Assembly: GCA_964036195.1 (NCBI GenBank)
Contig: OZ038459.1
Span: 3,531,206-3,595,205, forward strand
Source: Sphaerolaimus hirsutus
Taxonomy: Eukaryota > Nematoda > Chromadorea > Monhysterida > Sphaerolaimidae
DNA length: 64,000 nt
Reading direction: 5' to 3'
Each line of letters begins with the position of its first letter. Position 1 is the stretch's first letter. The translations under genes were made by a program, and so were the position numbers. The notes beneath the pieces are model-generated. The model was given only the letters and a program-made list of their open reading frames with translations, made no database searches and was not told the DNA's origin. Shown here one piece after another: positions 5,675-48,061 of the stretch.

Positions 5675-7578
5675 TAGGGTGTCAAATTTCCGTTTACGTT
5701 TTCCGTTTCCGCCTTTCCGCAGGAAAATTTTTTACCTTTCCGTTTTCCGTTTTCCGGCAGCCGAAAAATTTTTACCTTTCCGTTTTCTGTTTTCCGGCAG
5801 CTGAAATTTTTTTACCTTTGTGTTTCCGTTTTTCCGGCCCATTTTTCCGTTTTCCGGCTGAAAATTTTTTACCTTTCCATTTCCGTTTTACCAGGCCATT
5901 TTTTCCATTTTCTGGCTCGATTTTCAGTTTTCTGGCATTTTTCCATTGTTTTTCCAATCTGTATTTATCTTCAATTGGCTCATCCCATTGTGTTGTTTTT
6001 GTCTCTTGGAGCAGCATTGACAACTGGGATTTCAGGGTCAGTGAAACAGGTGCTGTGAACCCAATTGGGCCATATGCTGACACCAATAATTTATTCAAGT
6101 TTCGTCTGGTTGGTGTTGTGATGCTGTCAATTTGCAATTTTGGTGTTGATATTGCCAGCATGTCCGTTCGGTGATTTTATTTCATGCCCATTACTGTGAC
6201 AATTTGATTCACCTTTGGACTCCTGTCATTTTCAGCTATTTCATTCATGACTGATCTGGAGTTTGACAGCCAATCCCTCATGTTCATAGAACATTGGTTA
6301 AATAAAGCTTTAACTTTGTAATATAGTTCTAAAGCTTCAACTTCATTCGTGACACTCATGATGAAGTTATCGACATAAATGTTGTTTATTATCATCGCCA
6401 ACTGGTTTTGTTCCCCTTCATTTTCTTCATATTCATTTATCGTTTATTGTCACATTTGAATGGTATTTTATGACTGCTCCCAAAATTGCTGGGCTGCAGA
6501 CAAGTCCAAACAGTATGCATTTAAAATGAAGTACTATTAAGTTATTTTCAGTTACTGGTTTTGAGGCATCTTTCAGCCAGAAAAATCGTGTGTAGTGTCT
6601 AGCTTGGTCATGCAATCCTATTTGCAAAAATGCCTTTTCAATATCGGCAATTAATGCCAGATTGCCTGCCCTGAACCTCAGAAGTAGGCCCAGTGCTAAT
6701 GGTGTTGTAATTGGTCCTCTAAAAAGGCACTCGTTGAAACTGGGCTTACCTGCTGACCCATCGTACACGATTCTGCATGATGTCAATTTGCCCGGCGTGA
6801 TTACTGGCTGGTGTGGCATGTAATGAATCCCCTTGTTGTCTGTTTTGTCATCACAGATCTCAATTATTCCCTTTTTCTAGTTGGTCGTCCAAAACTTTCT
6901 GGTATTGTTTGAATAAGTTTGGATCTTTGTTGAATCTTCTTATCAGTGATTTAAACCACACCAAGGCTTCTGCTTTTCCCATGGGCAGGTCACTGATACT
7001 CTCTTTATACGGCCAGTCAATATAGTATCGTTTGTTGTTGTTGTTGAATTTTATGCTATTTATTACCATCTCCTCTGCAATGTTGTCATCAATTGCATAG
7101 GGGTCATCAGTGATTCCCACTGCTTCTAGACTGTGAAATTGTCATAGTGTTTCCTTTCCTATGGCCACTATGGCTACTTTTTGATGATTTTTTGTTGGTT
7201 CAGTTAAGCTTGAACTACAAGTGAAGTTACAGGCATGATCCATAGTTGCAGCATGTACAGCTACCACAATCAAAGCCAAACAGGCAAACCTGCGAGCAGG
7301 TTTTCCTTCTGCAAATTTGTCTATTACCGTGCTAATTTCACTTTATTTTTTTCCGTTTCCATGAAAATTTTGCTTTCCGTTTTCCGGCATTTCATTTTTC
7401 CGTTTTCCGGCTGACAATTTTTTTTTACCTTTCCGTTTTCTGTTTTCTGCTGAGTGAATTTTTTTTACCTTTCCGTTTTTCGTTTTCCGGTAGAAATTTT
7501 TTTTTACCTTTCCGTTTTCCGTAAAGTGAAAAAATTTTACCTTTCCGTTTTCCGTAAAACAAATTTTTTGACACCCTA
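5675..7578. mobile_element. hAT-like TTTCCG-word element carrying a BEL/Pao pol fragment (copy 1)
   Basis: The termini are TAGGGTGTCAAATTTCCG and ..TTTGACACCCTA. The subterminal arms are arrays of TTTCCGTTTTCCGGCAG-like units, both read in the same orientation. Between them lies about 1.4 kb of minus-strand pol sequence. The 8-bp duplication GTCATGAT (4768-4775, 7579-7586) and the TIR form point to a hAT-type transposase acting in trans; none is encoded. Copy 2 at 46141-48053 has the same architecture. Confidence 0.85.
5890..7320 (-). pseudogene. BEL/Pao retrotransposon pol fragment (reverse transcriptase), decayed
   Basis: Reading on the minus strand from about 7170 down to 5890, the translation gives the stretch leading into the BEL/Pao reverse transcriptase (ITDDPYAIDDN, then WPYKESISDLP and LIRRFNKDPN). 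The RT core follows, with LPHQPVI, CRIVYDGSAG, RFRAGNLALIADIEKAFLQI, LFGLVCSPAILGAVIKYH and NIYVDNFIMS, then the post-RT segment AYGPIGFTAPVSLTLKSQL. A single-base insertion near 6866-6880 shifts the frame just before the RT core, and a stop follows the VMGMK segment (6177). Protease, RNase H, integrase and LTRs are absent. It is filler inside a DNA element and not a functional retrotransposon. Confidence 0.85.
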
Positions 7579-11080: not shown

Positions 11081-11289
11081 TTGAGTGAAGTTATACTGCA
11101 TTAAGTCATGATCAGGAGCCAACAAGCACTTCAAAAGCGGTGCCGCTCTCCGCCCCATCGATGCCTACCATACTCTTTTATCGACTTTTTATCTTTTATT
11201 TTTAGGCCCATCATGAACTTTACTATTTACAAGTTTTGTAGTAAGTTCACTCAAGAACAAGAGCACATGACAAGAGCACACACAAAAAT

Positions 11290-12945
11290 ATGCATCATGG
11301 ACATATCATAACTGGAAATCTAAAAATATGCAAAAATGAAACACTGGAAAAACTATTGTCCTATGGGGCAAACTACAGACTACCGGTACCAGTCAACAAA
11401 AACGAAACTAAAACAAAAACACATGCAATTCTCGAGGAAATAAAAACAAATTTGACTTCAAAATTCCCTGAGGAACACGAAAGCATAAACATATGGCACG
11501 ACAAAGCAAAAAAACTAACAGAATACTGCATACGCAGCCACAAAAACAAGCAAACATTGACACAAACTGACATCAAAAAAGCACTACGACACCTGAAGGA
11601 AATGCAAAAAACCTTTGTCTTTGCACCAATAGATAAAGCTGCTGCTACTTTCGCAATTATCTGCAAAAAATACTACATCTCGGTGATAGACAAAGAACTG
11701 GGAAAAACAAACACATGGGAAAACAGTGGAAACATGACATACAAATACGTGGGGCCAGAATCTACACATTGCAACAACATACATGACACCCTAGAAAAAC
11801 ACACATTTTCCCTTGGCTGTGATGAAAGTAGATTCAAAAGAAGCTTCCCAATATTATACCCTACACCGAAATTCCATAAAACACCCATAAAATTCCGCTT
11901 TATAGCAGGAAGCAAACAGTCAAATGTCAATGCATTAGCATTTGATCTACACAAAATCCTACAGCTGCTAAATGAAAAGCTAAAACAATATTGTGACACC
12001 ATCACACAAAGAAACGGGACAAATCGTTACTGGCTATGCAAAAACAGTAATGAATGTGTCAAAGCCCTTAAAAATCAGACGGTGATACACAACATCAACA
12101 CATATGACTTCGCCAACATGTTTACAACCCTCCCACACAACCTAATTATACACAACATAAAGTTTTTACTAGACCTAATCATTTCATCAACCAAAATCAG
12201 AGTATTAAAAAACAGAGCAATAAAAAACACGTCAGATAAGCCAGGGAGGATATTTGATGTTGAAAAAGTATGCCAGCTACTAGGCACAGTGGTGTCCAAC
12301 ACATACGTAACACATTGCGGACACGTCTATCAACAGACCAGAGGGATACCCATGGGTGGAAGTGCCTCTAGTGACATCGCCAATCTTTGTCTCGCAAGCC
12401 TCGAATATCGGTACCTGGGAAATAAAGAAAACAGAATAAGTGCCAGAACATTAAAAAACACCAGACGTTATGTGGACGACATTCTAGTGTTAAACGACCC
12501 CAAATTTCTGACTAAAGCCACCCAAATATATGGCAATGAACTGACACTAGAGCCAGACAGCAACGAAAATGGGAAAAATGCTCACTTTTTAGATCTATAT
12601 ATAGCCCTAAATGGCAATCTACCACATCTAAAAATATGGAACAAAACAGATGACTATAAATTTGCCATCGTGAAGAACACCCACGTCAGTAGCAATATCC
12701 CAGAAAGCATAACATACAACGTCATGTATGCACAGAGCAAGAGATTTCTCGAAATTTGCAGTACCTTGTCAGACTGCACCACTAGAATAAAAGATCTCAG
12801 AATCAACCTAAAGCAAATGGGTTTCGATCAGAGAAAAATTACGGAAACACTCATGAAGCTAAGTGTAAATTACCCTTGCTTGTTCACCAAGCATAAGCTA
12901 ACAACAAAACAGCTAATCATTGAATGGATAAATAACACGATCTAA
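11290..12945 (+). CDS. Penelope-like reverse transcriptase, apparently intact ORF
   Basis: This is a 551-residue uninterrupted ORF. In order: a DKAAATFAIICKKYYI segment (about residue 115), matching the conserved DKG-type block that precedes Penelope-like RTs; YPTPKFHKTPIKFRFIAGS (about 190-208, fingers); YDFANMFTTLPHN (motif A aspartate, about 275); GIPMGGSASSDIANL (motif B, about 355); RRYVDDILVLN (catalytic YVDD, motif C, about 397); FLDLYIALNGNLPHLKIWNK (motifs D/E, about 435). The FLDLxI plus LPHLKIW arrangement is typical of Penelope-like elements and not of LTR or LINE RTs. I see no GIY-YIG endonuclease after the RT, so it may belong to an endonuclease-lacking lineage or be truncated at the 3' side. 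I did not find a hammerhead ribozyme core nearby. The next exon downstream belongs to an unrelated host-type gene. Confidence 0.8.
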   Translation: MHHGHIITGNLKICKNETLEKLLSYGANYRLPVPVNKNETKTKTHAILEEIKTNLTSKFPEEHESINIWHDKAKKLTEYCIRSHKNKQTLTQTDIKKALRHLKEMQKTFVFAPIDKAAATFAIICKKYYISVIDKELGKTNTWENSGNMTYKYVGPESTHCNNIHDTLEKHTFSLGCDESRFKRSFPILYPTPKFHKTPIKFRFIAGSKQSNVNALAFDLHKILQLLNEKLKQYCDTITQRNGTNRYWLCKNSNECVKALKNQTVIHNINTYDFANMFTTLPHNLIIHNIKFLLDLIISSTKIRVLKNRAIKNTSDKPGRIFDVEKVCQLLGTVVSNTYVTHCGHVYQQTRGIPMGGSASSDIANLCLASLEYRYLGNKENRISARTLKNTRRYVDDILVLNDPKFLTKATQIYGNELTLEPDSNENGKNAHFLDLYIALNGNLPHLKIWNKTDDYKFAIVKNTHVSSNIPESITYNVMYAQSKRFLEICSTLSDCTTRIKDLRINLKQMGFDQRKITETLMKLSVNYPCLFTKHKLTTKQLIIEWINNTI

Positions 12946-13460: not shown

Positions 13461-14290
13461 GTATACTTGTGTATAGGTGGGGAAAGTTCAAGAAAATTGT
13501 GCGAAGTTGTTCTTACTATTCAACCCACCTGGAAAAATCGATGTGCATCTAGTTCGAAATTTATCATTTTAGACAAAAATCTGAATAGGATACGCTAGAA
13601 ACGCTTATCCCGGGGCGAGGTGCCAGTCACTCAAAATTATGTATGCACACCAAAATTTCCGGCGCTAATCTAAGACTGGGCGATAAAAGCTCGCCACTAG
13701 CTAAAATAAAAAATCAACTACTACAATAGGAATAAAACTATAAAGTATTGGTAAACCAGAACCACTCCTAACTCAACCGCCGACTACAACAATTACCTAT
13801 ATGCAAATAATTTTCTGTACTTAGATACTTAATATACCGGGGGGGGGGGGTATTTCGAGGGGGGGGTTAATTCAAGGGGGAATTATTCGAGGTAATACGG
13901 TATCAAAAACTATAGGCAAAAGCGGAAGATTTACTGGATAGCTACTGAGTATATGTGCAATTTTACAAGTAGAAATAAATACGTTTTAACAACTTTGTAT
14001 GCAAGTTATCTTGATTTGATGAATAGTACTGGCACTTTTTTGTCAGCGTATAAAATTGTTTTTTTTATGACTGGGTAATTTTCGTTCTATGGTGATATTT
14101 TCATTATTTGTGTTCGTGTTATTGTAGCAGAAGCGTCATAAAAACTTATTTCTATAGTTTTTTATATTTATTATATTTATGACTGCATCTAATGTAACAC
14201 CATTCAGACAATATATATTGATCATGCATTTTACTCAATACTCTGAAAAAATCACTCCCCAGTCGAAAAATTATGATAAAAAATAACTCC
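13461..14290 (+). other. Intron 1 (first part), with a TA-element remnant
   Basis: This is intronic sequence between exons 1 and 2 of the gene. At about 13838-13900 lies a lone C/G-run end of the CCGTATTACCTCGAATTA family, oriented outward to the right. The rest is AT-rich with no other feature seen. The intron continues through the nested elements up to 17293. Confidence 0.6.
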
Positions 14291-14295
14291 CCTGG

Positions 14296-16385
14296 GACCA
14301 AATTTTATTCTCCCTACAGGTTTTGCAGGGTAGGGCGTGCGCCCTATAAATTTTCAACGTTCCGTCTGGCTGACGCAATGCACTGAGAGCAAGGCAGTAC
14401 GTGAAATACACGAAAGTCTGCCTTGACGTGACTGATATTGCAATATGATGTGTTTTACTTAGATTTTGGCCCGGAAACGACGATTTTGTCGTTTTTTTGG
14501 CCATCGGCCAACTCTTTATTTTTAGGATTTTGTCTGGCGCATTACTCGCAAAACTCGCGATATTGTATGCCCGTGTTTATGCATTCCTTTATTTCCACTG
14601 CCCTCATGTTTCGGCAGTAGGGCAGTGAAAACTAAGAAGTGCGCACGGAACTTCACAAAATAATGAGTTATGCAGCAATGCGCCCCCCAAAAAAAACGAA
14701 AAAAGAAAGAGTTGGCCGACGGCCAAAAATGACAAAATCGTGATTTCCGGGCCAAAATCCAAGTAAAACACGTCATATTGCAATATCGGCGACGTCGAGG
14801 CAAACTTTCATGTATTACACGAACTGCCTTGCTCTCGGTGCGTGTACGTCGATCTGGTGCCAATCCCAAGCCCTGTAAAGTGTAAAGTAAAGTGTCAAAT
14901 GTAAAGTAAAGTGTCATGTCAAATGTAAAGTAAAGTGTCAAATGTAAAGTAAAGTGTCAAATTTAAAGTAAAGTGTCAAGTAAAGTGTCAAGGGTTAAAG
15001 TAAAGTGTCAAATGTAAGTCAAATGTAAAGTAAAGTGTCAAGTAAAGTGTCAATGGCCATGACAAATGATAAAAATTCCCAAAAAAAGAAAAATATTTTA
15101 AGTAAAGCCACGAAATCTGTGTATCGAAACCGCGATGTCGAAAAAAAAAGAAGAAATATATACCTAAGTATTTCGGAATGTCGGTTTGTTTCCAAATGAC
15201 TGAGTATCAATTTTGTGAAATATGTACGATTATATCCCGCTTTACATATATTTTTTGTAACAGCGCTATGTGTTGTTCCTCGCTCTTTTGGTAATGAACC
15301 AACGATTTCAAAATGTGACGATTTTTTCGGATCGGGTCACGTATGTTATCTTGGCCAAGTCCAAATTTGTATTGGATACAGTTGGATACAATTGGATATC
15401 ATACAAGCGAGAGTAAACTACGCGGGATTTCCGTCCACATCACCGATAATGACCACAGAAGACAATTAAGCAGCCGGAAATGGTTGCTAATAGTGGCCGA
15501 CACATAACCTGACACATGTATACCTATATGAAGTATGTACCCATACAAATGGGTGATCCAAACAACTGTTTTGGCTTGCTGCCAGGATAACATGCAGCGA
15601 ATGTTTCATTTTTCGGAGACAATTTCCTCTTTTGTGAAGTTGGCCAGATTGGCTAGTTGGCAGAATGCCAAATATTTCGAAATCGCTGTAAAAATAGGTA
15701 TTCAACTATGAATATGGCCAATTATGAATGCGATAATAATGAACGTCAAAATGGAGCTAAGTTTAGTGATTTTAAGCAAAAAATTCCATTTCGACAGCTT
15801 TCACTCTCATTCAAACAACACATAGACTGTAACTTGGATGTGAGCCAACTTAACATATTTAAATGATCCGATTTTTTAAATTTAAGCAGTCGATTTGGAT
15901 ACTCGACACATGTCACATTTAAGATCTGTCTATCTGCCAATAATTAATACTGCGGATTCATGATACATACAACATAATGCAATAAATACATGTCCGAGTC
16001 CATTTCGGTTGGATTCAATAACTTTCCGTTTAATATTAAATTTTTTTCGTGAATTTTTTATGTTTTTCATGACATTTGACACTTGACTTTACATTTGACT
16101 TTACATTTGACACGACTTGACTTTACATTTGACACTTGACTTTGCATTTGACTTTACACTTGACACTTTACTTTACATTTGACTTTACATTTGACACTTG
16201 ACTTTACATTTGACATATGACTTGACACTTTACTTTACATTTGACATTTGACTTGACACTTTACTTTACATTTGACACTTTACTTTACACTTTACAGGGC
16301 TTGGGACTGCCCCCTGGCGGAACGTTGAAAGTTTATCGGGCGCATGCCCTAAAATACAAAATCTGTAGGGATACTTAAATCTGGC
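14296..16385. mobile_element. CCWGG-type palindromic element, split by a second CCWGG element
   Basis: The left end GACCAAATTTTATTCTCCC.. is preceded by CCTGG (14291-14295), and the right end ..TTAAATCTGGC lies at 16385. The left arm (14296-14590) folds onto the sequence up to 14857 plus 16318-16385, sharing CCGATGGCCAA-like and GATATTGCAATATG segments. It is a diverged relative of the 632-bp palindrome at 18584-19215. A second foldback element (14858-16312) interrupts the right arm. The right flanking CCWGG copy is not preserved. Confidence 0.75.
14858..16312. mobile_element. CCWGG-type foldback element, TGCCAATCCC family, AAAGTAAAGTGTCAA word
   Basis: The ends TGCCAATCCCAAGCCCTG and ..CAGGGCTTGGGACTGCC are flanked by TCTGG (14853-14857) and CCTGG (16313-16317). 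The left arm (14870-15055) is a run of 'AAAGTAAAGTGTCAAATGT' units, and the right arm (16073-16300) is the same word in inverse orientation. The roughly 1 kb between them looks unique and non-coding. Joining the outer sequence across the insertion restores the host palindrome's pairing with its left arm, confirming the insertion. Confidence 0.85.
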
Positions 16386-17293: not shown

Positions 17294-17402
17294 GTGTGGA
17301 GCCCCTTAGCCGACCGAAATGGCAGAGGGCCAACATTTCCACTAAGCACCGTTTTTGCCACCGGCTTGGAACACGACGCTGGCGGGTTCGGTGGAGTTGA
17401 AG
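17294..17402 (+). CDS. Exon 2, gene copy A
   Basis: The acceptor CTCTCAG precedes GTGTGGAGCCCC, and the donor GTGCGC follows ..GTTGAAG. The 109 nt enter in phase 0 and leave in phase 1. The translation includes VWSPLADRNGR and FPLSTVFATGLEHDAGGFGG. The same exon recurs at 26084-26192 with mainly third-position changes, which shows that the frame was under coding constraint. Function is not recognised. Confidence 0.75.
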
Positions 17403-17721: not shown

Positions 17722-18064
17722 GCTTCCTAGACGTGCCCATACCGAACTGGGGTATATGGGACCTCTCTGGAAACCTGGTGCCAATCCCAGACCCCGTAAA
17801 AAGCCCTGTAAAATGTCAAATGTCATGCAAAGTGTCAAAAGTCAAAGTCAAGTCAACTCGGTTGCCATTTTGCAGGGCATTTTACATGACTTTTGACACT
17901 TTACATGACACATGGCATCTTACAGGGCATTTTACAGGGTCTGGGACTGCCCCAGGGCATTCTGGGACCCTTGAACGAGTTCGGCACGGGCGTCATGGTG
18001 CGGCCCACAAACGCGTTAGGCTTTAGTCCCCAGGGAACTGCTGAGTTGATGAAACAGTACAGTG
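17722..18064 (+). CDS. Exon 3, gene copy A, interrupted by a 173-bp element
   Basis: The acceptor CCCCACAG precedes GCTTCCTAGACG, and the donor GTGATG follows ..CAGTACAGTG. Without the insertion at 17779-17951 and one 5-bp target copy, the exon is 165 nt, exactly the length of the uninterrupted exon in copy B (26554-26718). It enters and leaves in phase 1. Translation of the flanks gives FLDVPIPNWGIWDLSGNL before and NEFGTGVMVRPTNALGFSPQ after the insertion. The extra 178 nt would shift the frame if retained. A GT..AG interval at 17778-17955 would remove them exactly. The copy is therefore either broken or has gained an intron. Confidence 0.7.
17779..17951. mobile_element. CCWGG-type foldback element inside exon 3 (candidate introner)
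   Basis: The ends are TGCCAATCCCAGACCCCG and ..GGGTCTGGGACTGCC, with ATGTCAAATGTCATG-like words folding back between them. The flanks are CCTGG on the left (17774-17778) and CCAGG on the right (17952-17956). Gene copy B carries the empty site AACCTGGGCATTC, which fixes the duplication at five bases. The right copy differs from the left only in the central W base, and that difference creates the AG of a potential splice acceptor. Confidence 0.85.
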
Positions 18065-18372: not shown

Positions 18373-18430
18373 GAGACGAGCAGGCGGCGGTGTTGACGCT
18401 GCCCAGCGGCAAGGAGACCGTCCGGTGCAA
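18373..18430 (+). CDS. Exon 4, gene copy A
   Basis: The acceptor TTTCCCACAG precedes GAGACGAGCAGG, and the donor GTAAGA follows ..CGGTGCAA. The exon is 58 nt, phase 1 in and phase 2 out, encoding DEQAAVLTLPSGKETVRC. The phase leaving it does not fit the phase needed by the next conserved exon at 19452, so one short exon between them is probably unrecognised. Confidence 0.65.
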
Positions 18431-18583
18431 GTAAGATATAAATTTCGAAAATTGAGTGAACCACCAAAATGGCAATGTATTTAGAATTGGTCACAAACAT
18501 TTTTCACCATTTCCGAATTTTTCCAACTCGGGAATTCTGAACCCCCCCCCCTCCCGCCAACCCCCTCCCTTTCCTACCCCTGG

Positions 18584-19215
18584 GGCCAGATTTAATTCTC
18601 CCTACAGATTTGTAGGGTAGGGCTTACGCCCGATAGTTTTTTTTATCAGTTCAGCCGCATCGACGCACATGCACCGAGAGCAAGGCGGTTTGTAAAATAT
18701 ACAAAACCATCCCTGAAGGTCGCCGATATTGCAATATGACGTATATCGCTTCGATTTTGGCCCGGAAATCACTATTTCGTCATTTCTTGGCCGTCTGCCA
18801 ATACGTTTTTTATTTTATTTTGTCGGGCGGGTTACTCGCATAAGTCGCGCTATTGTGTAGTCAGGTGGTCACTTTTTTAGTGTTCACTGTCTGCAACCGA
18901 AACCATGAGGGCAGCGACAAAAAAGAAATGCATGCACGAGCGTACAAAAGCGCGACTTATGCGAGTAACCCACCCGACAAAATAAAATAAAAAGCGAATT
19001 GGCAGACGGCCAAGAAATGACGAAATAGTTATTTCCGGGCCAAAATCGAAGCGATATACGTCATATTGCAATATCGGCGACCTTCAGGGATTGTTTCGTA
19101 TATTTTACAAACCGCCTTGCTCTCGGTGCATGTGCGTCGATGCGGCTGAACTGATAAAAAAACTATCGGGCGTACGCCCTACCCTACAAATCTGTAGGGA
19201 GAATTAAATCTGGCC
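18584..19215. mobile_element. 632-bp palindromic CCWGG-type element, GGCCAGATTTAATTC family
   Basis: The left end GGCCAGATTTAATTCTCCC and the right end ..GGGAGAATTAAATCTGGCC are flanked by exact CCTGG copies (18579-18583, 19216-19220). The two arms match almost perfectly for about 300 bases each, with a short loop near 18890. It lies in the intron between exon 4 and exon 5 of gene copy A. No ORF is credible. The high arm identity suggests a recent insertion or continuing conversion between arms. Confidence 0.9.
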
Positions 19216-19451
19216 CCTGGGTCAAATATCATGTGAAATGCCCAGTAAAATTACCTATACATAAATAAATATTACATTTTGAAACTTTGTGTGAAGTTCA
19301 ACTGATGCATGAAACTTTACATAACATATGCACGCGCCAGGGCCGGACAACGCCCCCTCGCTACCCCCAAATAGACTCCGCCCCATCGCAACCCCCGAAT
19401 AGACTTCACCCCCTCGCAGACCCCCAGTCTGCAACCCCTTCATTCATTCAG

Positions 19452-19792
19452 TCGCTGTGGGCGTGCACGCCCAGGAACAACAGGACACCGGCATCGAGGG
19501 CGGCCTAGATTTTCCGCTGATGGACAAAAACAACAACCGATTTCCGCTCGCCGGACAATTTGAGGCGGTCGATGGACCCGTTTTGGTCGATTACGGACAC
19601 CATTTGAATAATGTCGACCCGTTTTTTAAAAGGAAGACCCAGCAGACGCAGAGGGTTTTTGTCAGCGATTCCGGCGGTGATAGTCGGTTGGCACAGAGCC
19701 AAGTGCAGAATGCTGGCAGCGGTATATTTCGTAGAAGGAGGTTGAGACAGAGGCAAAATGGCAATAATGGTTTTAGGTTGCGGAGAAATTGA
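19452..19792 (+). CDS. Terminal exon of gene copy A
   Basis: The acceptor CATTCATTCAG precedes the reading frame AVGVHAQEQQDTGIEGG, which continues through FEAVDGPVLVDYGHHLNNV to a basic, glutamine/arginine-rich C terminus (..GIFRRRRLRQRQNG..) and a TGA. Copy B at 28360-28700 has the same frame and length with largely synonymous changes (for example TTT/TTC, GGC/GGG), which argues that this frame is the real one. No family is recognised. Confidence 0.7.
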
Positions 19793-26083: not shown

Positions 26084-26192
26084 GTGTGGAGCCCCTTAGC
26101 CGACCGTAATGGCAGAGCGCCTGTATTTCCTCTGAGCACCGTTTTTGCCACCGGCTTGGAACACGACGCTGGCGGCTTCGGTGGAGTTGATG
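26084..26192 (+). CDS. Exon 2, gene copy B
   Basis: The acceptor GATTTTCAG precedes GTGTGGAGCCCC, and the donor GTGCGC follows ..GTTGATG. It has the same length (109 nt) and phases as the copy A exon. Compared with copy A the changes are mostly silent (CGA/CGT, CCA/CCT, CTA/CTG) plus a few replacements. Nothing like exon 1 or its TATA box is seen between copy A and this exon. Confidence 0.75.
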
Positions 26193-26553
26193 GTGCGCTG
26201 CAAAAAAAATCGCAAAAATATCGATTTTTTGCATTAATTTTTTTCATTTTCCAATTTTTCTATAAGATTTTGAAGCATCTTGTTTGCTGCTTTCCTAGCT
26301 GTTCCCGCAGATTCTTTTGCTCATTTTTTGCCACAAACAGATTCATATGAAGATGAAGTTTTTAATTGTGTTTCTGCATTTTTTGGACATTTTCAAACAA
26401 AACACCGGGAAAATATCCGAATTTTCGAATTTTTCTAGAAGAAAAAAACGATTTTTAATTTGTTTGTTTTTCTAACGGTGCAAAAAATTCAAAAAAGCCC
26501 AAAAAGTCCTAAATTCGAAAACATTTCCCATCGGCATCGCTATCCCCCCACAG

Positions 26554-26718
26554 GCTTCCTAGACGTGCCCATACCGAACTGGGGCACGTGGGACCTCTCC
26601 GGGAACCTGGGCATTCTGGGCACCCTGAACGAGTTCGGCACGGGCGTCATGGTGCGGCCCACAAACGCGTTAGGCTTTAGTCCCCAGGGAACTGCTGAGT
26701 TGATGAAACAGTACAGTG
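26554..26718 (+). CDS. Exon 3, gene copy B (uninterrupted)
   Basis: The acceptor CCCCACAG precedes GCTTCCTAG, and the donor GTGAGG follows ..CAGTACAGTG. It is 165 nt, phase 1 to phase 1, encoding FLDVPIPNWGTWDLSGNLG and GTLNEFGTGVMVRPTNAL. It preserves the pre-insertion sequence AACCTGGGCATTC at the point where copy A carries a CCWGG element. Confidence 0.75.
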
Positions 26719-27106
26719 GTGAGGGGGGGGGGGATTATTTTCTCTCTTTTTTTTGGGGGGGGGGGGGGTCAAGTGAAAATTTGACAAAGTGTTTTTCACT
26801 CGGCTCGAGTCTCTGGCGGGTCTTCGAATCACGGCAGGCTAACCGGAGTTTGACACGTTTTTCGCTTGATGGCGAATGGAAAAGCGCCAGAAAAAAATGT
26901 CGTCACCGGAAAATGGCGCTATTTAGGTAACCATTAACCGTCAACCATGTAGCATGAAAATAACCAATAAAGACTGCCGCAAATTCTACCAGGATATATT
27001 TCTATAAAGAAGCCTTATGGTCTACATCGATATCACCAATACATCGATATCCAACTATATCGATATCAACACAGAACAATGCACCACGCGACAATGAGGG
27101 GTGCAC

Positions 27107-27423
27107 TGATACGCACATCTGCCCGTTACGCACATTTGCCCGTTTTTTTTCACTTGACACTTTTTAAGGTGATTTTCAGATATGAGTGAAGTGAAAAACG
27201 CTGCGCAATGACATTAGTGAAAAACAGTGAAAAATGGCTATTTTTCACTGTTTTTTTTTACTTGACACATTTTTAAGTGATTTTCAGATATGAGTGAAGT
27301 GAAAAACGTTCACTAATGTCATTGCGCAACTTTTTTTCACCTTACTCATATCTGAAAATCACTTGAAAACGTGTCAAGTGAAAAAAACGGGCAAATGTGC
27401 GTAACGGGCAGATGTGCGTATCA
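27107..27423. mobile_element. 317-bp foldback element with TGATACGCACATCTGCCCG ends
   Basis: Inverted ends TGATACGCACATCTGCCCG and ..CGGGCAGATGTGCGTATCA are each doubled inward by a variant (GTTACGCACATTTGCCCG). The arms continue with CACTTGACAC and TTTTCAGATATGAGTGAAG in both orientations. Gene copy A lacks it at the matching intron position (near 18265). Target duplication is not evident. Confidence 0.85.
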
Positions 27424-27555
27424 GGCCTGCCCCGCGACAATGGCGCCTTGGCGCTATTCAAAAGAGGAATGTATGCCCCATTCAGGCGCCCTAAAATACC
27501 GTCACATTCCAATCGCAAGTCATGTTCTGCTCACAATGGACCTTGTATTTCACAG

Positions 27556-27613
27556 GAGACGAGCAGGCGGCGGTGTTGACGCTGCCCAGCGGCAAGGAGA
27601 CCGTCCGGTGCAA
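27556..27613 (+). CDS. Exon 4, gene copy B
   Basis: The acceptor TTTCACAG precedes GAGACGAGCAGG, and the donor GTGAGA follows ..CGGTGCAA. It is 58 nt and identical in sequence to copy A exon 4 over the coding part. The same unresolved phase to the terminal exon applies. Confidence 0.65.
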
Positions 27614-27729
27614 GTGAGACCAAACTGAAACCTTCATCAGAGACTATAGCCTCGCTGCAATAAAAATTGAGCTATTGAGGCGTTTATTTCTAAAAGTCGA
27701 TAACTCCAAAATTTGGAAGAATTGAGTTA

Positions 27730-27846
27730 CCGTATTTCTTCTAAAAGAAAGGCGCCGTTCTATTTTTTTCGTCAACTTTTTTACCTGCCGTTCTATTGGA
27801 GGTGCCGTTCTATTGGAGCTATGCCGTTCTATTAGAAGGAATACGG
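27730..27846. mobile_element. TA-flanked element, CCGTATTTCTTCTAA family, GCCGTTCTATT word
   Basis: A 117-bp element with ends CCGTATTTCTTCTAAAAG and ..CTATTAGAAGGAATACGG, flanked by TA (27728-27729, 27847-27848). The interior repeats GCCGTTCTATTGGAGG. A longer relative lies at 33433-33781. Confidence 0.85.
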
Positions 27847-28154
27847 TAAGCACGGAAATCGAACCAAGGAGGTGTCCCACACATTTTTTACCATTTCCGA
27901 ATTTTTCCGGCGTCACTTACCTCCCATTTTATAGTGTCACATTTTGACACTTTTAAACAATAAAAAACAATTTTCAAAACATCTCCGGCATGAAGTCGAT
28001 AACTCCATGCAGCATACAGAAAAAAAGTTGATAAGTAAAATATTACGATTTGTCAAATGTCACGTAAATATCTTCGTTAAACTCATACACATCGCATTTT
28101 GCAAATTTGTGTGAAGTTCCAACTTATGCACAACACTTTACATGGCGCCCCAGG

Positions 28155-28281
28155 TGTCAGTCCTAGACCTTGTAAAATTCCCCGTAAAATGTCATGCAAA
28201 GCGTCAAAAGTCATGTAAAATGCCCTGCAAAATGGCAAACAAGGTTTACAGGTGTAAAATTTACAGGGTATGGGACTGCCC
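28155..28281. mobile_element. CCWGG-type foldback element, TGCCAGTCCC family
   Basis: Ends TGTCAGTCCTAGACCTTG and ..CAGGGTATGGGACTGCC are flanked by CCAGG (28150-28154) and, after one extra C, CCAGA. Inner words ATGTCATG and GTAAAATGCCCTG fold back. It lies in the intron before the terminal exon of copy B. Confidence 0.7.
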
Positions 28282-28359
28282 CCAGACTAACCCCCCCAAA
28301 CACCCAATAGACTCCGCCCCCTCGCAGACCCCCAGTCTGCAACCCCTTCATTCATTCAG

Positions 28360-28700
28360 TCGCCGTGGGCGTGCATGCACAGGAACAACAGGACACCGGC
28401 ATCGAGGGCGGCCTAGATTTTCCGCTGATGGACAAAAACAACAACCGATTTCCGCTCGCCGGACAATTCGAGGCGGTCGATGGACCCGTTTTGGTCGATT
28501 ACGGACACCATTTGAATAATGTCGACCCGTTTTTTAAAAGGAAGACCCAGCAGACGCAGAGGGTTTTTGTCAGCGATACCGGGGGTGATAGTCGGTTGGC
28601 ACAGAGCCAAGTGCAGAATGCTGGCAGCGGGATATTTCGTAGAAGGAGGTTGAGACAGAGGCAAAATGGCGATAATGGTTTTAGGTTGTGGAGAAATTGA
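28360..28700 (+). CDS. Terminal exon of gene copy B
   Basis: Same acceptor, frame and length as 19452-19792, ending in TGA. Replacements are few (for example S to T in the VSD segment). The polyadenylation signal AATAAA follows at about 28988. The copy lacks a visible first exon and promoter of its own, so it is either silent, a partial duplicate, or spliced from the upstream exon 1. Confidence 0.7.
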
Positions 28701-34214: not shown

Positions 34215-34487
34215 CTGAGGGAGTGTGGTGAGTTGAGGGGAAAGTTCAGTGAATCGTTGTTTGCTTTAAAAAAAAATTTACAATATGACGTCTGACTACC
34301 ATGGCTAAATGCCCGAAATTCATTGCGAACTTAAGGCACCAGGCACCTTAACATTTCTCATTCAATCTGACGCCAGGCACATAATAACAACAAATAATTG
34401 AGAAATAATTTGAAAAACCTACCACCTGGCCCTGGGCTACACTCGTCGTATAGTCATATCTGGCCTGGCTGACAAAAATCGACCTGG

Positions 34488-34777
34488 CGCCACTACCAGA
34501 CCCTGTAAAATGCCGTGTAAAATGTCAAATGTCATGCAAAGTGTCTTAAGTCATGTAAAATGCCCTAGAAAATGGCGAACGTCCGTTTTGATTTTTGCCG
34601 TGTATTTTACATGAATTTCGACTCTTTGCATGACTTTTGAGATTATGCAGGGCGTTTCACACGACTGTTAACACTTTGCGTGACGTTTGCCATTTTGCAA
34701 GGTATTTTACATGACTTTTGACACTTTGCATGACATTTGACATTTTACAGGGCATTTTACAGGGTGCGGGACTGGCA
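34488..34777. mobile_element. CCWGG-type foldback element, TGCCAGTCCC family
   Basis: Ends CGCCACTACCAGACCCTG and ..CAGGGTGCGGGACTGGCA are flanked by exact CCTGG copies (34483-34487, 34778-34782). The arms consist of AAATGTCAAATGTCATGC and TTTTACATGACTTTTGAC words in inverse orientation. Non-coding. Confidence 0.9.
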
Positions 34778-35208
34778 CCTGGCGCCGCGTTTGTTGATTG
34801 TCAGCCACTGGCCCATTTGTCGTTCGAACGCCTGCTTAGCATACTCCTTCTTGCTGTCGGATTCAGATTCAGTGCTGGTGGGTATTTTTGCGCCGGATAC
34901 TGCGAGGGTTGCTCTCAAGTTTATTTTTTCATCGGATCGGACATTTTTGGAGGGGGGACTATTCAAGGCGTGAGTTTTTCAAGGGGGGCTTTTTCGTCAA
35001 AATTTCAAAGGATGTGTCAATCAACTCATTTCACGAAATATGGTTTACCGTAAATGCTCCAATAAGGCGACGGTCGGTTTATTGTTTTCAGCACATTTTT
35101 GGGGGTCGCATTATTGGAGAGGTCGCTTTATTGGAGAGGGTCGTATTGTATTTTTCAAAAACTCAACAACTCAACTTTTCATTTAACACGTATATGAGCA
35201 TGGCACCG

Positions 35209-35889: not shown

Positions 35890-36640
35890 TAAACATATCA
35901 GGTGTTTTGAGTTTTTACCCAAAATGTCACCCCTCTAGCTCCACCCACTGCGGAACTGTGGGTGTTACAATTTCGGTCATTTTGTACTGATGTACACATG
36001 GTGCTATAGCTCAACGCTGCTTTCAGTTGTGATCATGTAACTTTGGCTAGTGTAAGCCAGTGTGCTGGCAATGTGCTGATAGTATTCAACACTTTTATCA
36101 ACATCATTGCTATCAAAGTAAAATTAATATGCAAATCAGGGTGATGTGCAAGAAACGTGGGAACTGTGATGGATGTTTTGGTGATCATCTGAGATCATGT
36201 TGTATTGCATTGTAGTGATTTGAATGTTGTTTTGAAATCTGCAGTAAATAATTATGTACATAAAATTTCATTTGTGTTGTGACCAAATATTTTTGTTTGC
36301 TCAAATAATCCCCTACTCCTGAGATTAGGGCGTCTATACAAAGCTGTTCATTTTGTATGCCTTATCTGGACATTGTTTTTGAAGCTTAATAAGTTGGTCA
36401 TTTATGGGCTGTTTATGAGCGGTCAACAATTAAAATGATCAGGACAGCGTGCAGATTCAATTTTTGTGGTCGGATTATTGATGTGTAAATTTCATATGCT
36501 GATTTGATCCAGTTGAATGAAAATGCATGCAATTTCAGAACTCAATATCTCAGCTATTTCTCAACCGATTTTCACCAATAAACACTTAAAATGATCAGAA
36601 TTACCTGGAGCTTCCATATTTATGTTCCGATTATCAGCTG
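35890..36640. other. Conserved unique segment of the left arm
   Basis: Sequence without repeats, mirrored almost unchanged at about 48555-49305. No ORF is shared between the arms that looks coding. It may be element-specific sequence or captured host DNA. Confidence 0.5.
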
Positions 36641-36649
36641 CCACTCCTA

Positions 36650-37012
36650 GACCCTGTAACAAACCTTGAAAGGTGTCAAAGACCCTGTAAAATGTCATGT
36701 GTAATGTAAAATACCCTGTAAAGTGTTATGTGTATCCAAATCTTATTTTATAATATCCAAATCTTATGTTTTTGTATCCAAATCTTACGTTTTACATAAG
36801 ATTTGGATACAAAAAAAACATAAGATTTGGATACAAAAACATAAGATTTGGAAACACGTGACACTTTACAGGGTCTTTTACATGACATTTGACAATTGAC
36901 AGGGTCTTTTACATGACACATGACATTTTACAGGGTCTTTTACATGACAAATGACATTTTACAGGGTCTTTGACACTTTACAGGGTCTTTTATAGGATCT
37001 GGGAATGCCCCA
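36650..37012. mobile_element. Foldback element TGCCACTCCTAGACCC, mirrored at 48213-48553
   Basis: Left end CTGCCACTCCTAGACCCTG, right end ..GGATCTGGGAATGCCCC. The centre folds through ATCCAAATCTTATG and CATAAGATTTGGAT words. The same insertion exists inverted in the right arm, so it predates formation of, or was copied during, the palindrome. Confidence 0.75.
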
Positions 37013-37379
37013 AGCATGTGGTCTATGCCCTTTCTAGTTTTACCAGGTGTGTTTTACTCTGCTCCAACATGATAGGCACATGGTTTCTGCATGGTACTTT
37101 TACAAAGTGCAGAAAACTTGTAACCTACATGTTTCATTGTCAAAATTGAAACAGCTACTCAATTGAGCCCTCAAAAAATTCCACTTTGAATACCCCCATG
37201 GTGCTTTTGGCATGCGAGCACAAAGCGCCAATAGCGCCAGTGCCAAAAGCAAGATTATGCCTAATCAAGTCAAGTTTTCTTATTTTTGTGATGTTATTTT
37301 ACAGCTGAGAGTTCCAGTTGACAATGGAAAGCCATCGCGGAGAAAAGTGCTTAGATTTGTATAGATAATGTCATGTGTC

Positions 37380-37934
37380 ACATAAAAAACTCAAAAACTC
37401 AAACTGTTTAGTGTCAAATGTCATGTAAAAGACCCTTTAAAGTGTCATGTGTATCTAAATCCGATTATATAGTATCCAAAACTTATGTTTTTGTATCCAA
37501 ATCTTACTCTTTTACATAAGATTTGGATACAAGAACACACAGTTTGGATATGATAAAATGAGATTTGGATATGATAAAATAAGATTTGCATACACATGAC
37601 ACTTTACAAGGTCTTTTACATGACACTTTACAAGGTCTTTTACATGACACGTTACAAGGTCTTTTACATGACATTTAACACTTAACATGGTTTTTACATG
37701 ACACCTGACCTTGGTTGGTTATATAAGAATTTTTTGTATATAAATTGTATGAAAATTGTATTTTATTTTAATTTTATTCTTGTTTCATTTTATTTTATTC
37801 TTCAATTTTCCATTTTATTTTTTTATTATTTTTATTTTATTTTTTATTTTGCCAGAGATTTTGCCAACCATGCACCTGACATTTTACAGGGTCTTTTACA
37901 CTTTACAGGGTCTGTTACAGGGTCTGGGAGTGGC
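37380..37934. repeat. Second TCTGGGAGTGGCA foldback half, left arm
   Basis: TTTACATGACA and ACAGGGTCTTTTACATGAC words lead to the terminus ..GGGTCTGGGAGTGGCA followed by CCGGG. It mirrors 44900-45400 in the right arm, where the terminus TGCCACTCCCAGACCC is preceded by CCTGG (44895-44899), again a CCWGG context. Confidence 0.7.
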
Positions 37935-38169
37935 ACCGGGTACATTGCACATTAACAAATAATATCGACAATAAAGCTTAATTTTCAACACAACGCAACA
38001 CCATGCATTTGAACATCTCTCATCTGCCCATTATTTGGGAAAGTGTTGAATATCCTTGCAATTGCATGAACATGTATACAAAATAAGCAGTAGAGGGTTT
38101 GTTCTTCCTGAATACACTTACAGTAACACATTTACTTCTGAAAATCATGCACACAAAATCTTTTCACAT

Positions 38170-44754: not shown

Positions 44755-45573
44755 TACATGTTCATGGAATTACAATGATATTCAACACTTTTCCCAAATA
44801 ATGGGCCAATGAGAGATGTTCAAATGCATGGTGGTGTTACATTGTGTTGAAAATCAAGTTGTATTGTTGATATTATATGTTTATGTGCAATGTACCTGGT
44901 GCCACTCCCAGACCCTGTAACAAACCCTGTAGAGTGTAAAACACCCTGTAAAATGTCAGGTGCAGGGTTGGCAAAATCTCAGAGAAAAAAAATAAAAAAA
45001 TAAAATGGAAATTCGAAGACTAAAATAAAATAAAATAAAATGAAACAAGAATAAAATTAAAATAAAATACTATTTTTATACAATTTGTATACAAATAAAT
45101 TTTATACAACTGACCATGGTCAGGTGTCATGTAAAAACCATGTGAAGTGTAAAATGTCATGTAAAAGACGTTGTAAATTGTCATGTGTATGCAAATATTA
45201 TTTTATCATATCTAAATCTCATTTTGTCATATCCAAACTCTCTGTTCTTGTATCCAAATCTTATGTAAAAGGGTAAGATTTGGATACAAAAACATGAGTT
45301 TTGGATACTATAAAATAGGATTTAGATACACATGACACTTTAAAGGGTCTTTTACATGACATTTGACACTAAACAGTCTTTTACATAACACATGACATTA
45401 TCTTTATAAATCTAAGCACTTTTTTCCGCGATGGCTTGCCATTGTCAACTGGAACTCTCAGCTGTAAAATAACATCAACAAAAAAAAGAAAACTTGTCTC
45501 GATTAGGCGTAATCTTGCATCTTACACAGGTAAATAGCACTGAATTAGCTTGCTGCACTTGAGGAGCAGCAAA

Positions 45574-45750
45574 ATTTTTTGGCGCTGGTGCTATTGGTGC
45601 TTGGTGCCAACATCCTTTGGCACCATTGGTGCTTGGCGCCTTGTTCTTGAAAAGCGCCATAGCGCTTTTGGCGCTTGGCACTGTTTTGCTGTGGCGCCAT
45701 TGGTGCTTTTGGCGCTTGGCTTTAAAAGTCTGGCGTTTTTTACATCACTA
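45574..45750. mobile_element. GCGCCA-word element in right arm, outer copy
   Basis: CAGCAAAATTTTTTGGCGC at the left (45566) and ..GGCGTTTTTTACATCACTA at the right. It matches 31050-31277 in its left-end form. Followed at 45800-45860 by a few more such words. Confidence 0.7.
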
Positions 45751-46132
45751 TTCAAGGCCAACTTTATCTTTATTTTTTTTTGACTCGATTAGGCATAATC
45801 TTGCTTTTGGCGCTGGCACTATTGGCGCTTGGTGCTTGCATGCCAAAAGCGCCATGGGGGTATTCAAAGTGGAATTTATTGAGGGCTCAATTGAGTAGCT
45901 GTTTCAATTTTGACAATGAAACATGTTGGTTACAAGTTTTCTGCACTTTGTAAAAGTACCATGCAGAAACCATGTGCCTATCATGTTGGAGCAGAGTAAA
46001 ACACATGCTCCACTTGATAAATCAAACATTGACTACTCAATCACATCAATGTGAACTTTTTCAATTTACAAATGTGTTCCATTGCAAAATACAGTTTATG
46101 CCACAATAAATACCCTATTGTAAAAAACAATT

Positions 46133-46140
46133 CTAACAAT
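46133..46140. repeat. Target-site duplication CTAACAAT (left)
   Basis: Exactly repeated at 48054-48061 on the other side of the hAT-like element. Confidence 0.9.
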
Positions 46141-48053
46141 TAGGGTGTCAAATTTCCGTTTCCGTTTTCCGTTTCCGCCTTTCCGCAGGAAAATTTTTTA
46201 CCTTTCCGTTTTCCGTTTTCCGGCAGCCGAAAAATTTTTACCTTTCCGTTTTCCGTTTTCCGGCAGCCGAAAAATTTTTACCTTTCCGTTTTCCGTTTTC
46301 CGGCTGAAAAATTTTTACCTTTCCGTTTCCGTTTTACCAGGCCATTTTTCCATTTTCTGGCTCAATTTTCAGTTTTCTGGCATTTTTCCATTGTTTTTCC
46401 AATCTGTATTCATCTTCAATTGGCCCATCCCATTGTGTTGTTTTTGTCTCTTGGAGCAGCATTGACAACTGGGATTTCAGGGTCAGTGAAACAGGTGCTG
46501 CGAACCCAATTGGGTCATATGCTGACACCAATAATATATTCAAGTTTCGTCTGGTTGGTGTTGTGATGCTGTCAATTTGCAATTTTGGTGTTGATATTGC
46601 CAGCATGTCCGTTCGGTGATTTTATTTCATGCCCATTACTGCGACAATTTTATTCACCTTTGGACTCCTGTTGTTTTCTGCTATTTCATTCATGACTGAT
46701 CTGGAGTTTGACAGCCATTCCCTCATGTTCATAGAACATTGGTTAAATAAAGCTTTGACTTTGTAATATAGTTCTAAAGCTTCAACTTCATTCATGACAC
46801 TCATGATGAAGTTATCAACATAAATGTTGTTTATTATCATCGCCAACTGGTTTCGTTCCCCTTCATCTTCTTCATATTCATTCATGTTGTTTATTGTCAC
46901 ATTTAAATGGTATTTTATGACTGCTCCCAAAATTGCTGGGCTGCAGACAAGTCCAAACAGTACGCGTTTAAAACGAAGTACTATTATATTATTTTCAGTT
47001 ACTGGTTTTGAGGCATCTTTCAGCCAGAAAAATTGTGTGTAGTCTCTAGCTTGGTCATGCAATCCTATTTGCAAAAATGCCTTTTCAATATCGGCAATTA
47101 ATGCTAGATTGCCTGCCCTGAACCTCAGGAGTAGGCCCAGTGCTAATGGTGTGGTAATTGGTCCTCTAAAAAGGCACTCGTTGAAACTGGGCTTACCTGC
47201 CGACCCATTGTACACGATTCTGCATGATGTTGATTTGCCCGGTGTGATTACTGGCTGGTGTGGCAGGTAATGAATACCCTTGTTGTCTGTTTTGTCATCA
47301 CAGATCTCAATTATTCCCTTTTCTAGTTGGTTATCCATAACTTTCTGGTATTGTTCGTATAAGTTTGGATCTTTGTTGAATCTTCTTATCAGTGATTTAA
47401 ACTGCACCAAAGCTTCTGCTTTTCCCGTGGGCAGGTCACTGATACTCTCTTTATACAGCCAGTCAATATAGTATCATTTGTTGTTGTCGTTGAATTTTAT
47501 GCTATTTATTATCATCTCCTCTGCAATGTTGTCATCAATTGCATAGGAGTCATCAGTGATTCCCACTGCTTCTAGACTTTGAAATTGTCGTAGTGTTTCC
47601 TTTCCTATGGCCACTATGGCTACTTTTTGATGATTTTTTGTTGGTTCAGTTAAGCTTGAACTATGAGTGAAGTTACAGGCATGATCCATAGTTGCAGAAT
47701 GTACAGCTACCACAATCAAAGCCAAACAGGCAAACCTGCATGCAGGTTTTCCTTCTGCAAATTTGTCTATTCCCGTGCTAATTTCACTTTATTTTTTTCC
47801 GTTTCCGTGAAAATTTTGCTTTCCGTTTTCTGTTTTCCGGCATTTCATTTTTCCGTTTTCCGTTTTCCGGCCGACAATTTTTTTTTACCTTTCCGTTTTC
47901 CGTTTTCCGCTGAGTGAAATTTTTTTACCTTTCCGTTTTCCGTTTTCTGGCAGAAATTTTTTTTTTACCTTTCCGTTTTCCGTTTTCCGTAAAGTGAAAA
48001 AATTTTACCTTTCCGTTTTCCGTTTTCCGTAAAAAAAAATTTTTGACACCCTA
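46141..48053. mobile_element. hAT-like TTTCCG-word element carrying a BEL/Pao pol fragment (copy 2)
   Basis: The termini are TAGGGTGTCAAATTTCCG and ..TTTTTGACACCCTA, with exact CTAACAAT duplications. Subterminal arrays of TTACCTTTCCGTTTTCCGG units surround about 1.4 kb of pol-derived sequence that is highly similar to copy 1 at 5675-7578. It is present only in the right arm of the giant palindrome and was therefore inserted after the arms formed or was lost from the left arm. Confidence 0.9.
46330..47760 (-). pseudogene. BEL/Pao retrotransposon pol fragment (reverse transcriptase), second copy
   Basis: An open stretch of 262 codons (46622-47410) carries the BEL/Pao RT core: LPHQPVITPGKS, FRGPITTPLALGLLLRFRAG, ALIADIEKAFLQI, RVLFGLVCSPAILGAVIKYH and NIYVDNFIMS. 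Upstream, a TGA interrupts the frame near 47474, where copy 1 has a sense codon. Downstream, a stop after VMGMK at 46622 separates the RT from the AYDPIGFAAPVSLTLKSQL segment, and this stop is shared with copy 1. There is no protease, RNase H, integrase or LTR. The two copies thus descend from one already broken fragment. Confidence 0.85.
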
Positions 48054-48061
48054 CTAACAAT
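48054..48061. repeat. Target-site duplication CTAACAAT (right)
   Basis: Exact partner of 46133-46140. Confidence 0.9.

Follow-up and report, generated by a model that had tools for sequence, protein, structure and literature searches.

The exon of a gene that lies within the 64-kb stretch of Sphaerolaimus hirsutus DNA analysed here (the window) raises an evolutionary question: How did an inserted element of 178 nt come to begin with GT and finish with AG, so placed that its removal as an intron would rebuild the exon of a neighbouring paralogue? The element, which we call E2 (table 1), follows AACCTG (17772-17777), opens with GTGCCAAT (17778-17785), closes with TGCCCCAG (17948-17955) and precedes GGCATTC (17956-17962), so that the order AACCTG, GTGCC..CCCCAG, GGCATTC given in the original prediction is confirmed letter by letter. 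Excision of 17778-17955 joins the flanks into AACCTGGGCATTC, the very sequence that stands uninterrupted in copy B at 26604, as had also been claimed. E2 has inverted arms (17782-17844 and 17887-17949) that are 87% complementary across 63 nt, and its DNA hairpin has a z of -11, with none of 200 shuffles folding equally well. Our answer, to which we assign a probability of about 0.88, is that E2 is one copy of a family of introners, formed by a non-autonomous, nearly palindromic transposon that duplicates a CWG target; it would be spliced out exactly at its ends, and its right target copy would have changed from T to A after insertion.

Table 1. Positions, within the window, of E2, of the paralogous genes around it and of other members of the family
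Feature	Position	Strand	Remarks
E1 with flanking triplets	14854..16316	+	1.46 kb; AAGCCC type; CTG..CTG; nested in another repeat
Copy A, first modelled exon	17294..17402	+	Acceptor CTCTCAG upstream, donor GTGCGC downstream
Copy A, interrupted exon, 5' half	17722..17777	+	
E2, left target copy CTG	17775..17777	+	Native Leu codon; G at 17778 is the first base of the putative intron
E2	17778..17955	+	Element read as GT..AG intron; MITE-like hairpin; class CTG-left/CAG-right
E2, right target copy	17953..17955	+	CAG in place of CTG; gives the putative 3' splice site AG
Copy A, interrupted exon, 3' half	17956..18064	+	
Copy A, third modelled exon	18373..18430	+	
Copy A, last modelled exon	19420..19792	+	Stop codon included; acceptor picked to preserve the frame
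Copy B	26084..28700	+	Exons 26084-26192, 26554-26718, 27556-27613, 28328-28700
Empty site of E2 in copy B	26604-26615	+	Target there is CTG
E3 with flanking triplets	28151..28285	+	Shorter member, in intron 3 of copy B; CAG..CAG, then A
E4 with flanking triplets	34484..34781	+	Longer member; CTG..CTG; left end GCGCC, not GTGCC

The model of the two tandem paralogues, copy A and copy B, begins without a located gene start, and the exon bearing E2 is its second (exon 3 in the original prediction). Removing E2 as a GT..AG intron yields a frame of 234 codons common to both copies, with no indel; the ordinary introns of the pair are likewise of the GT-AG type. Over 704 coding bases the copies differ by substitutions only, 16.5 synonymous and 9.5 non-synonymous (dS 0.11, dN 0.018), whereas introns 1 and 2, which are 85% identical, contain 100 and 711 gap columns, respectively. 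The low dN with respect to dS, together with coding sequence free of indels between gapped introns, indicates selection on the coding sequence after the duplication, and the modelled exons of copy A show no lesion besides E2. Copy A may still be a recent pseudogene, with a signal of selection that could predate the insertion of E2. The spliced product of copy B had no homologue at E 1e-3 in a word-based search of about 5.8 billion proteins (522 candidates). In the frame of copy A, E2 has no internal stop codon, which distinguishes it from most of the 40 loci compared; given its length of 178 nt, it shifts the frame all the same.

In the genome searched (348.5 Mb in 762 contigs), the 25-base left end GGTGCCARTCCCAGACCCYGTAAAA has 1535 exact matches and the reversed pattern used as control has 0, thereby presenting the many similar copies by which introners are recognised. 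Full-length members measure about 190 bp, with GTGCCARTCCC as left end and GGGG as right end; at the right end of E2, CCC precedes CAG in place of the usual four bases, a short form present in six of 40 loci, E2 included. These 40 relatives are the best places scored out of 1500 first-look candidates, and many of them lie in open frames. Junctions of family members were evaluated by comparing the peptides encoded by the element-removed DNA with solved structures, or else by Pfam spans. No gap appeared across the GT..AG junction in DNA polymerase beta (L008, E 1e-21), UQCRC1/MPP-beta (L002, E 6e-20), the SLC4 bicarbonate transporter (L019, E 1e-16) and the beta-1,4-galactosyltransferase B4GALT (L018, E 1.5e-11), while OSCP1 (L056, Pfam 3e-19) has equal spans after GT..AG removal. 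By homology, then, members of the family read as end-to-end introns in unrelated genes, with boundaries that are deduced from the alignments. Further copies at exon positions, for which the original prediction had proposed a search, are indeed found in these four genes aligned across the junction, and such copies in conserved exons with gap-free junctions support its view of E2 as a candidate introner. The first three loci have CTG, a native codon, as left triplet and CAG as right triplet, exactly like E2, and the OSCP1 gene (around 3592-3593 kb) carries two putative introners about 0.8 kb apart, L056 ending with AG and L055 with TG.

Other peptides were less informative: six of eight coding-looking ones matched no Pfam family, and the other two did so only below the cut-off (EGF, RusA); in a second Pfam set four of ten had no family and L068 matched only below the cut-off, with L049 giving an LRR match above it. 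Two matches were excluded as junction tests, that of L035 to Ig, confined to the right side of the junction, and that of L014, a CTG/CTG copy, to Wnt-3a (1e-8), in which just two aligned residues precede the junction and mainly the right half is tested. The Wnt match and that of L011 to a kainate-type glutamate receptor nevertheless mark the host as an animal. Judged by motif recognition, additional loci may encode IFT70, GLUT, GPCR, AMP-binding, Kelch, zinc-finger, cadherin and FBXL proteins.

The reading frames around the elements were evaluated in 60 loci, 20 in list order from each of the classes CTG/CAG, CAG/CAG and CTG/CTG (left/right triplet), one duplicated pair (L116, L117) being among them. 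To score the six frames of each flank separately, we used a codon model whose training set was 745 codons taken from other loci. Under exact removal of the element the best frames of both flanks agree in 33 of the 60 loci against about one-sixth expected (p 1.6e-11), a chance level that GC-rich flanks may exceed; the median GC of the flanks, across the loci compared for it, is 0.57 for CAG/CAG, 0.58 for CTG/CAG and 0.54 for CTG/CTG, compared with 0.32-0.47 in the window. The element lies in sense in 31 of these 33 loci. Agreement occurs in 11/20 CTG/CAG, 9/20 CAG/CAG and 13/20 CTG/CTG loci, which makes the CTG/CTG class seem no less exonic than the other two, and is missing in 27 of the 60 (9, 11 and 7 loci of 20, in the same order). 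A test based on ORF length with one-base shifts was weak, since both arms reached at least 25 codons in 15/20 loci with the exact cut and in 13/20 with either shift.

What the element duplicates upon insertion can be deduced from its flanks, which are CWG on both sides in most copies examined. A 5-bp duplication of CCWGG had been proposed originally; the flanking context is CCWGG as stated, but the duplication itself is better read as the 3-bp CWG within this preferred context, since L007, L008 and E3 retain the G ahead of TGCC although another base follows their right copy. That same G, which had been attributed to the target copy as the first base of the donor, is consequently best assigned to the element. 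The acceptor AG, on the other hand, does lie in the right target copy and depends upon a single T/A difference (CAG vs CTG in copy B), in agreement with the original prediction. The 63-nt arms of E2, the CWG on both sides in the CTG/CTG and CAG/CAG classes and the empty site in copy B provide the TIRs and TSD that introners often possess. The idea that CCTGG and CCAGG are merely part of the inverted ends was discarded in view of the true duplications CTG..CTG and CAG..CAG, and also because DNA polymerase beta, UQCRC1 and SLC4 have CTG as their native codon.

Across the whole genome, copies with the AGACC left end number 220 for CAG/CAG, 135 for CTG/CTG and 22 for CAG/CTG, some of the latter being copies of one insertion. 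The CTG/CAG class, which departs from a perfect CWG duplication, comprises 157 places without the AGACC restriction, about one-third of them by eye belonging to an AAGCCC-type subfamily that may not be exonic; at least 40 carry AGACC, by a hand count among the 100 of the 157 that were listed. Under neutrality, CTG/CAG and CAG/CTG could each be reached from CTG/CTG or CAG/CAG at equal rates and should be equal in number; the observed values are at least 40 vs 22 (p 0.03), or 63 vs 22 when extrapolated (p 1e-5). The rarity of the mirror class fits selection for an acceptor AG. The original prediction had left the choice between a neutral mutation and such selection, and these counts favour selection over a neutral accident as the probable reason for T to A in the right copy, with an order of mutations that is reconstructed from the present classes. 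Template switching at the quasi-palindrome is a possible cause of the change.

The age of the copies does not decide why the right copy reads CAG. Median divergence from the consensus is 0.090 for CTG/CAG, 0.081 for CTG/CTG and 0.066 for CAG/CAG; CTG/CAG differs from CAG/CAG (p 0.03), and as a test of age the comparisons of CTG/CTG with CAG/CAG (p 0.32) and with CTG/CAG (p 0.22) gave no difference. The base directly after the right copy is G in 30/35 CTG/CTG, 18/30 CTG/CAG and 20/31 CAG/CAG copies, and GT follows in 15/35, 4/30 and 10/31, respectively (CTG/CTG vs CTG/CAG, p 0.013; vs CAG/CAG, p 0.45); a TG site may need a downstream context of G or GT. A rule by which non-coding copies always keep W and coding copies never do was dropped, its first classing having been circular, for AG had been used to find the coding copies. 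When elements were removed without requiring AG, CTG/CTG copies appeared in exons too.

These CTG/CTG copies in conserved exons, which the original prediction did not foresee, create a puzzle of their own: sliding the cut along the repeat produces only GT..TG or less usual pairs, and the intron that would restore the frame ends with TG. The junction is gap-free in a kainate-type glutamate receptor (L011, 4e-43, cut inside SSYTANL^AAFLTV), CNOT9 (L121, 1.8e-33), EFTUD2 (L124, 9.8e-36) and AMPK gamma (L112, 2.4e-32); Pfam spans are equal in OSCP1 (L055, 4e-17, same gene as L056) and one residue apart in a chondroitin GalNAc-transferase (L067, 1.5e-10). From frame and homology, such genes would be either spliced as GT-TG or rescued by another route. 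We lean towards constitutive splicing by the host of transposon-made GT-TG introns having TG as their sole 3' site, including those of CNOT9 and EFTUD2; the class would then represent an intermediate, in which an insertion at CTG produces a GT-TG intron held by its hairpin and a later change of T to A turns it into an intron of ordinary GT-AG appearance. The alternative, doubtful in our judgement, is that exonic CTG/CTG copies represent knock-outs, either young or heterozygous, or use other splice sites, and only the copies ending with CAG are introns. It draws upon human genes, in which TG is reported never to act as the only 3' splice site (Szafranski et al. 2007, PMC2374985), and upon the nearest downstream AG, which is in frame in 11 of the 20 sampled CTG/CTG copies, 3 to 78 nt away, so that its use would cause an in-frame deletion. 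It is weakened by the intact flanks of the six conserved genes just listed, and by the CNOT9 query, which has a single place in 348 Mb, namely the right half of L121 (the left half, of 16 residues, is too short to be reported). Nor is the divergence of CTG/CTG copies below that of CAG/CAG copies, as would befit younger insertions, and all 13 of the frame-consistent CTG/CTG loci are in sense.

For E2 itself, the plainest rival is that an ordinary MITE broke copy A and that its GT..AG fit is due to luck. If retained, E2 does shift the frame of copy A, so that translation of the modelled part would end after 137 residues, and the close, intact paralogue would render the loss tolerable. The donor GTGCCA and the acceptor CTGCCCCAG are weak with respect to the usual metazoan consensus; GTAAAA, a stronger-looking donor in frame, is present 18 nt inside both E2 and the family consensus, and its use could include six extra residues. 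Luck does not account, however, for family members that have the same boundaries in conserved genes with gap-free homology, nor for the sense orientation of 31 of 33 frame-consistent loci; the purifying selection between copies A and B and the lack of any other lesion in the modelled exons of copy A also argue against a broken gene, which we consider improbable. Still less probable is that the exon copies spread by reverse splicing of intron RNA, without a transposase. Their exact GT..AG fit and the CTG/CAG copies without a perfect target duplication would suit such a route, which fails to explain the inverted ends, the perfect CWG duplications at many copies, including non-coding-looking ones, and the left CWG retained in most copies even where the right triplet is CAG; inverted ends combined with CWG duplications point to DNA transposition. 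We give the least credence to the removal of the element from DNA by precise somatic excision between CWG copies, in the manner of the internal eliminated sequences of ciliates. It would account for CTG/CTG copies in conserved exons without invoking a TG splice site, yet it leaves unexplained the excess of CTG/CAG over CAG/CTG, the sense bias and the GT at the left end; to our knowledge, nothing similar to DNA excision at such a scale is known in animals.

The reading that we favour, of E2 as an introner, can be cast into a mechanism. A non-autonomous DNA transposon, almost palindromic and about 190 bp long, probably mobilised by a NuwaI-like transposase, would duplicate a CWG target. Because its left end is GTG, insertion in sense would place a GT donor directly behind the target CWG, and the intron would finish with the right copy of the target. 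A target with W = A would thereby furnish both splice sites immediately (CAG|GTGCC....CCCCCAG|). A target with W = T would leave TG at the right, in insertions that apparently persist in exons; E2 is among the loci that today have A in place of the right T, which would provide a normal AG. In RNA folds predicted for the 60 loci, about 85% of the element is paired, internal AG being so in 243 of 325 cases and internal GU in 537 of 635, and the ends of the two exons become neighbours; base-shuffled elements, computed for 20 of the 60 loci, have 97 of 206 AG paired and under half the folding energy. The hairpin might hide most of the internal AG and GU and join the exon ends, steering the spliceosome to the element's ends even when the latter is TG.

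Family and mechanism appear to be of an already known kind, E2 probably belonging to a large animal introner family that is also a candidate source of GT-TG introns. Introners are non-autonomous, many have TIRs and TSDs, and they were found in two animal groups by Gozashti et al. (2022, PMC9860276); in their account, with which the elements here appear to agree, introners insert in exons, can draw one splice site or both from the target duplication, and usually leave the length of the mRNA unchanged on removal. Those introners, however, came from annotated introns or partial genomes, whereas here W would decide between an AG and a TG 3' end, both kinds lying in conserved exons. The introner elements of Amoebophrya (PMC7789003) similarly have direct repeats across exon/intron borders (3-5 nt there), inverted repeats and non-canonical splice sites, and a hairpin bringing exon ends together was proposed for them; that host is a parasitic dinoflagellate in which splice motifs are highly varied and few elements were assigned to MITEs, in contrast to an animal with one left end and one target rule. 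The duplication of CWG is shared with NuwaI, of the PIF/Harbinger-like PHIS superfamily of animals (Han et al. 2015, PMC4482050), and is seen here in the 220 CAG/CAG and 135 CTG/CTG copies vs 22 CAG/CTG; NuwaI TIRs usually start with GGG, with which the right end (GGGGCAGTCCC) agrees and the left end GTG does not, and the accessible portion of its description has no mention of intron making. In human genes TG can serve as a U2 3' splice site, as it may here, but only as an alternative to a neighbouring AG (PMC2374985), while in this genome it is the sole end that would restore the frame exactly. In the animal Fritillaria borealis (PMC13326754), too, the triplet preceding the 5' site is of the same kind as the one that closes the intron, and introners were suggested to give rise to weak splice sites; the commonest introns of that species, AG/AC and AG/AT, carry YAY triplets, as opposed to GT and CWG triplets here. 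For a choice between AG and TG ends that is set by W, no precedent was found in the open-access literature searched, as far as the accessible text of these sources extends.

In evolutionary terms, the origin of introns is a long-standing open question and introners have been reported from few animals. One genome here appears to display the possible steps together: a target with a splice site, a target without it, and a target in which the missing base is present. The CWG target allows each locus to tell if its 3' site came with the insertion or must have been gained afterwards. If CTG/CTG copies are indeed spliced, the human rule that TG never stands alone fails in an animal, and the hairpin would be a likely reason.

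A few additional observations concern variants of the family and other features of the window. L023 and L025 have altered donors, ATGCC and GCGCC, with CAG as right end; they are possibly AT-AG and GC-AG forms, or non-functional copies. A subfamily starting with CTGGTGCCARTCCCAAGCCCTGTAAAGTGTAAAG has CTG..CAG ends at many places in the genome. Within the window, intron 3 of copy A contains a second inverted repeat (18578-19221, arms 89%), with relatives at 14289-14853. An open frame of 566 codons at 11245-12945 weakly resembles reverse transcriptases (RVT_1, E 1e-4, below the cut-off), and two related reverse-transcriptase-like frames lie on the minus strand at 6433-6876 and 46622-47473, the RVT_1 match being limited to the latter (E 3e-6, below the cut-off). 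Finally, inverted copies of a related longer element lie at 36600-37970 and 44870-48600, with outer ends CCTGGAGCTTCC.. and ..GGAAGCTCCAGG; they enclose an inner stretch of about 7 kb that is bounded by ACCYGGTACATTGCAC in inverted order, and may represent a larger relative or nested insertions.
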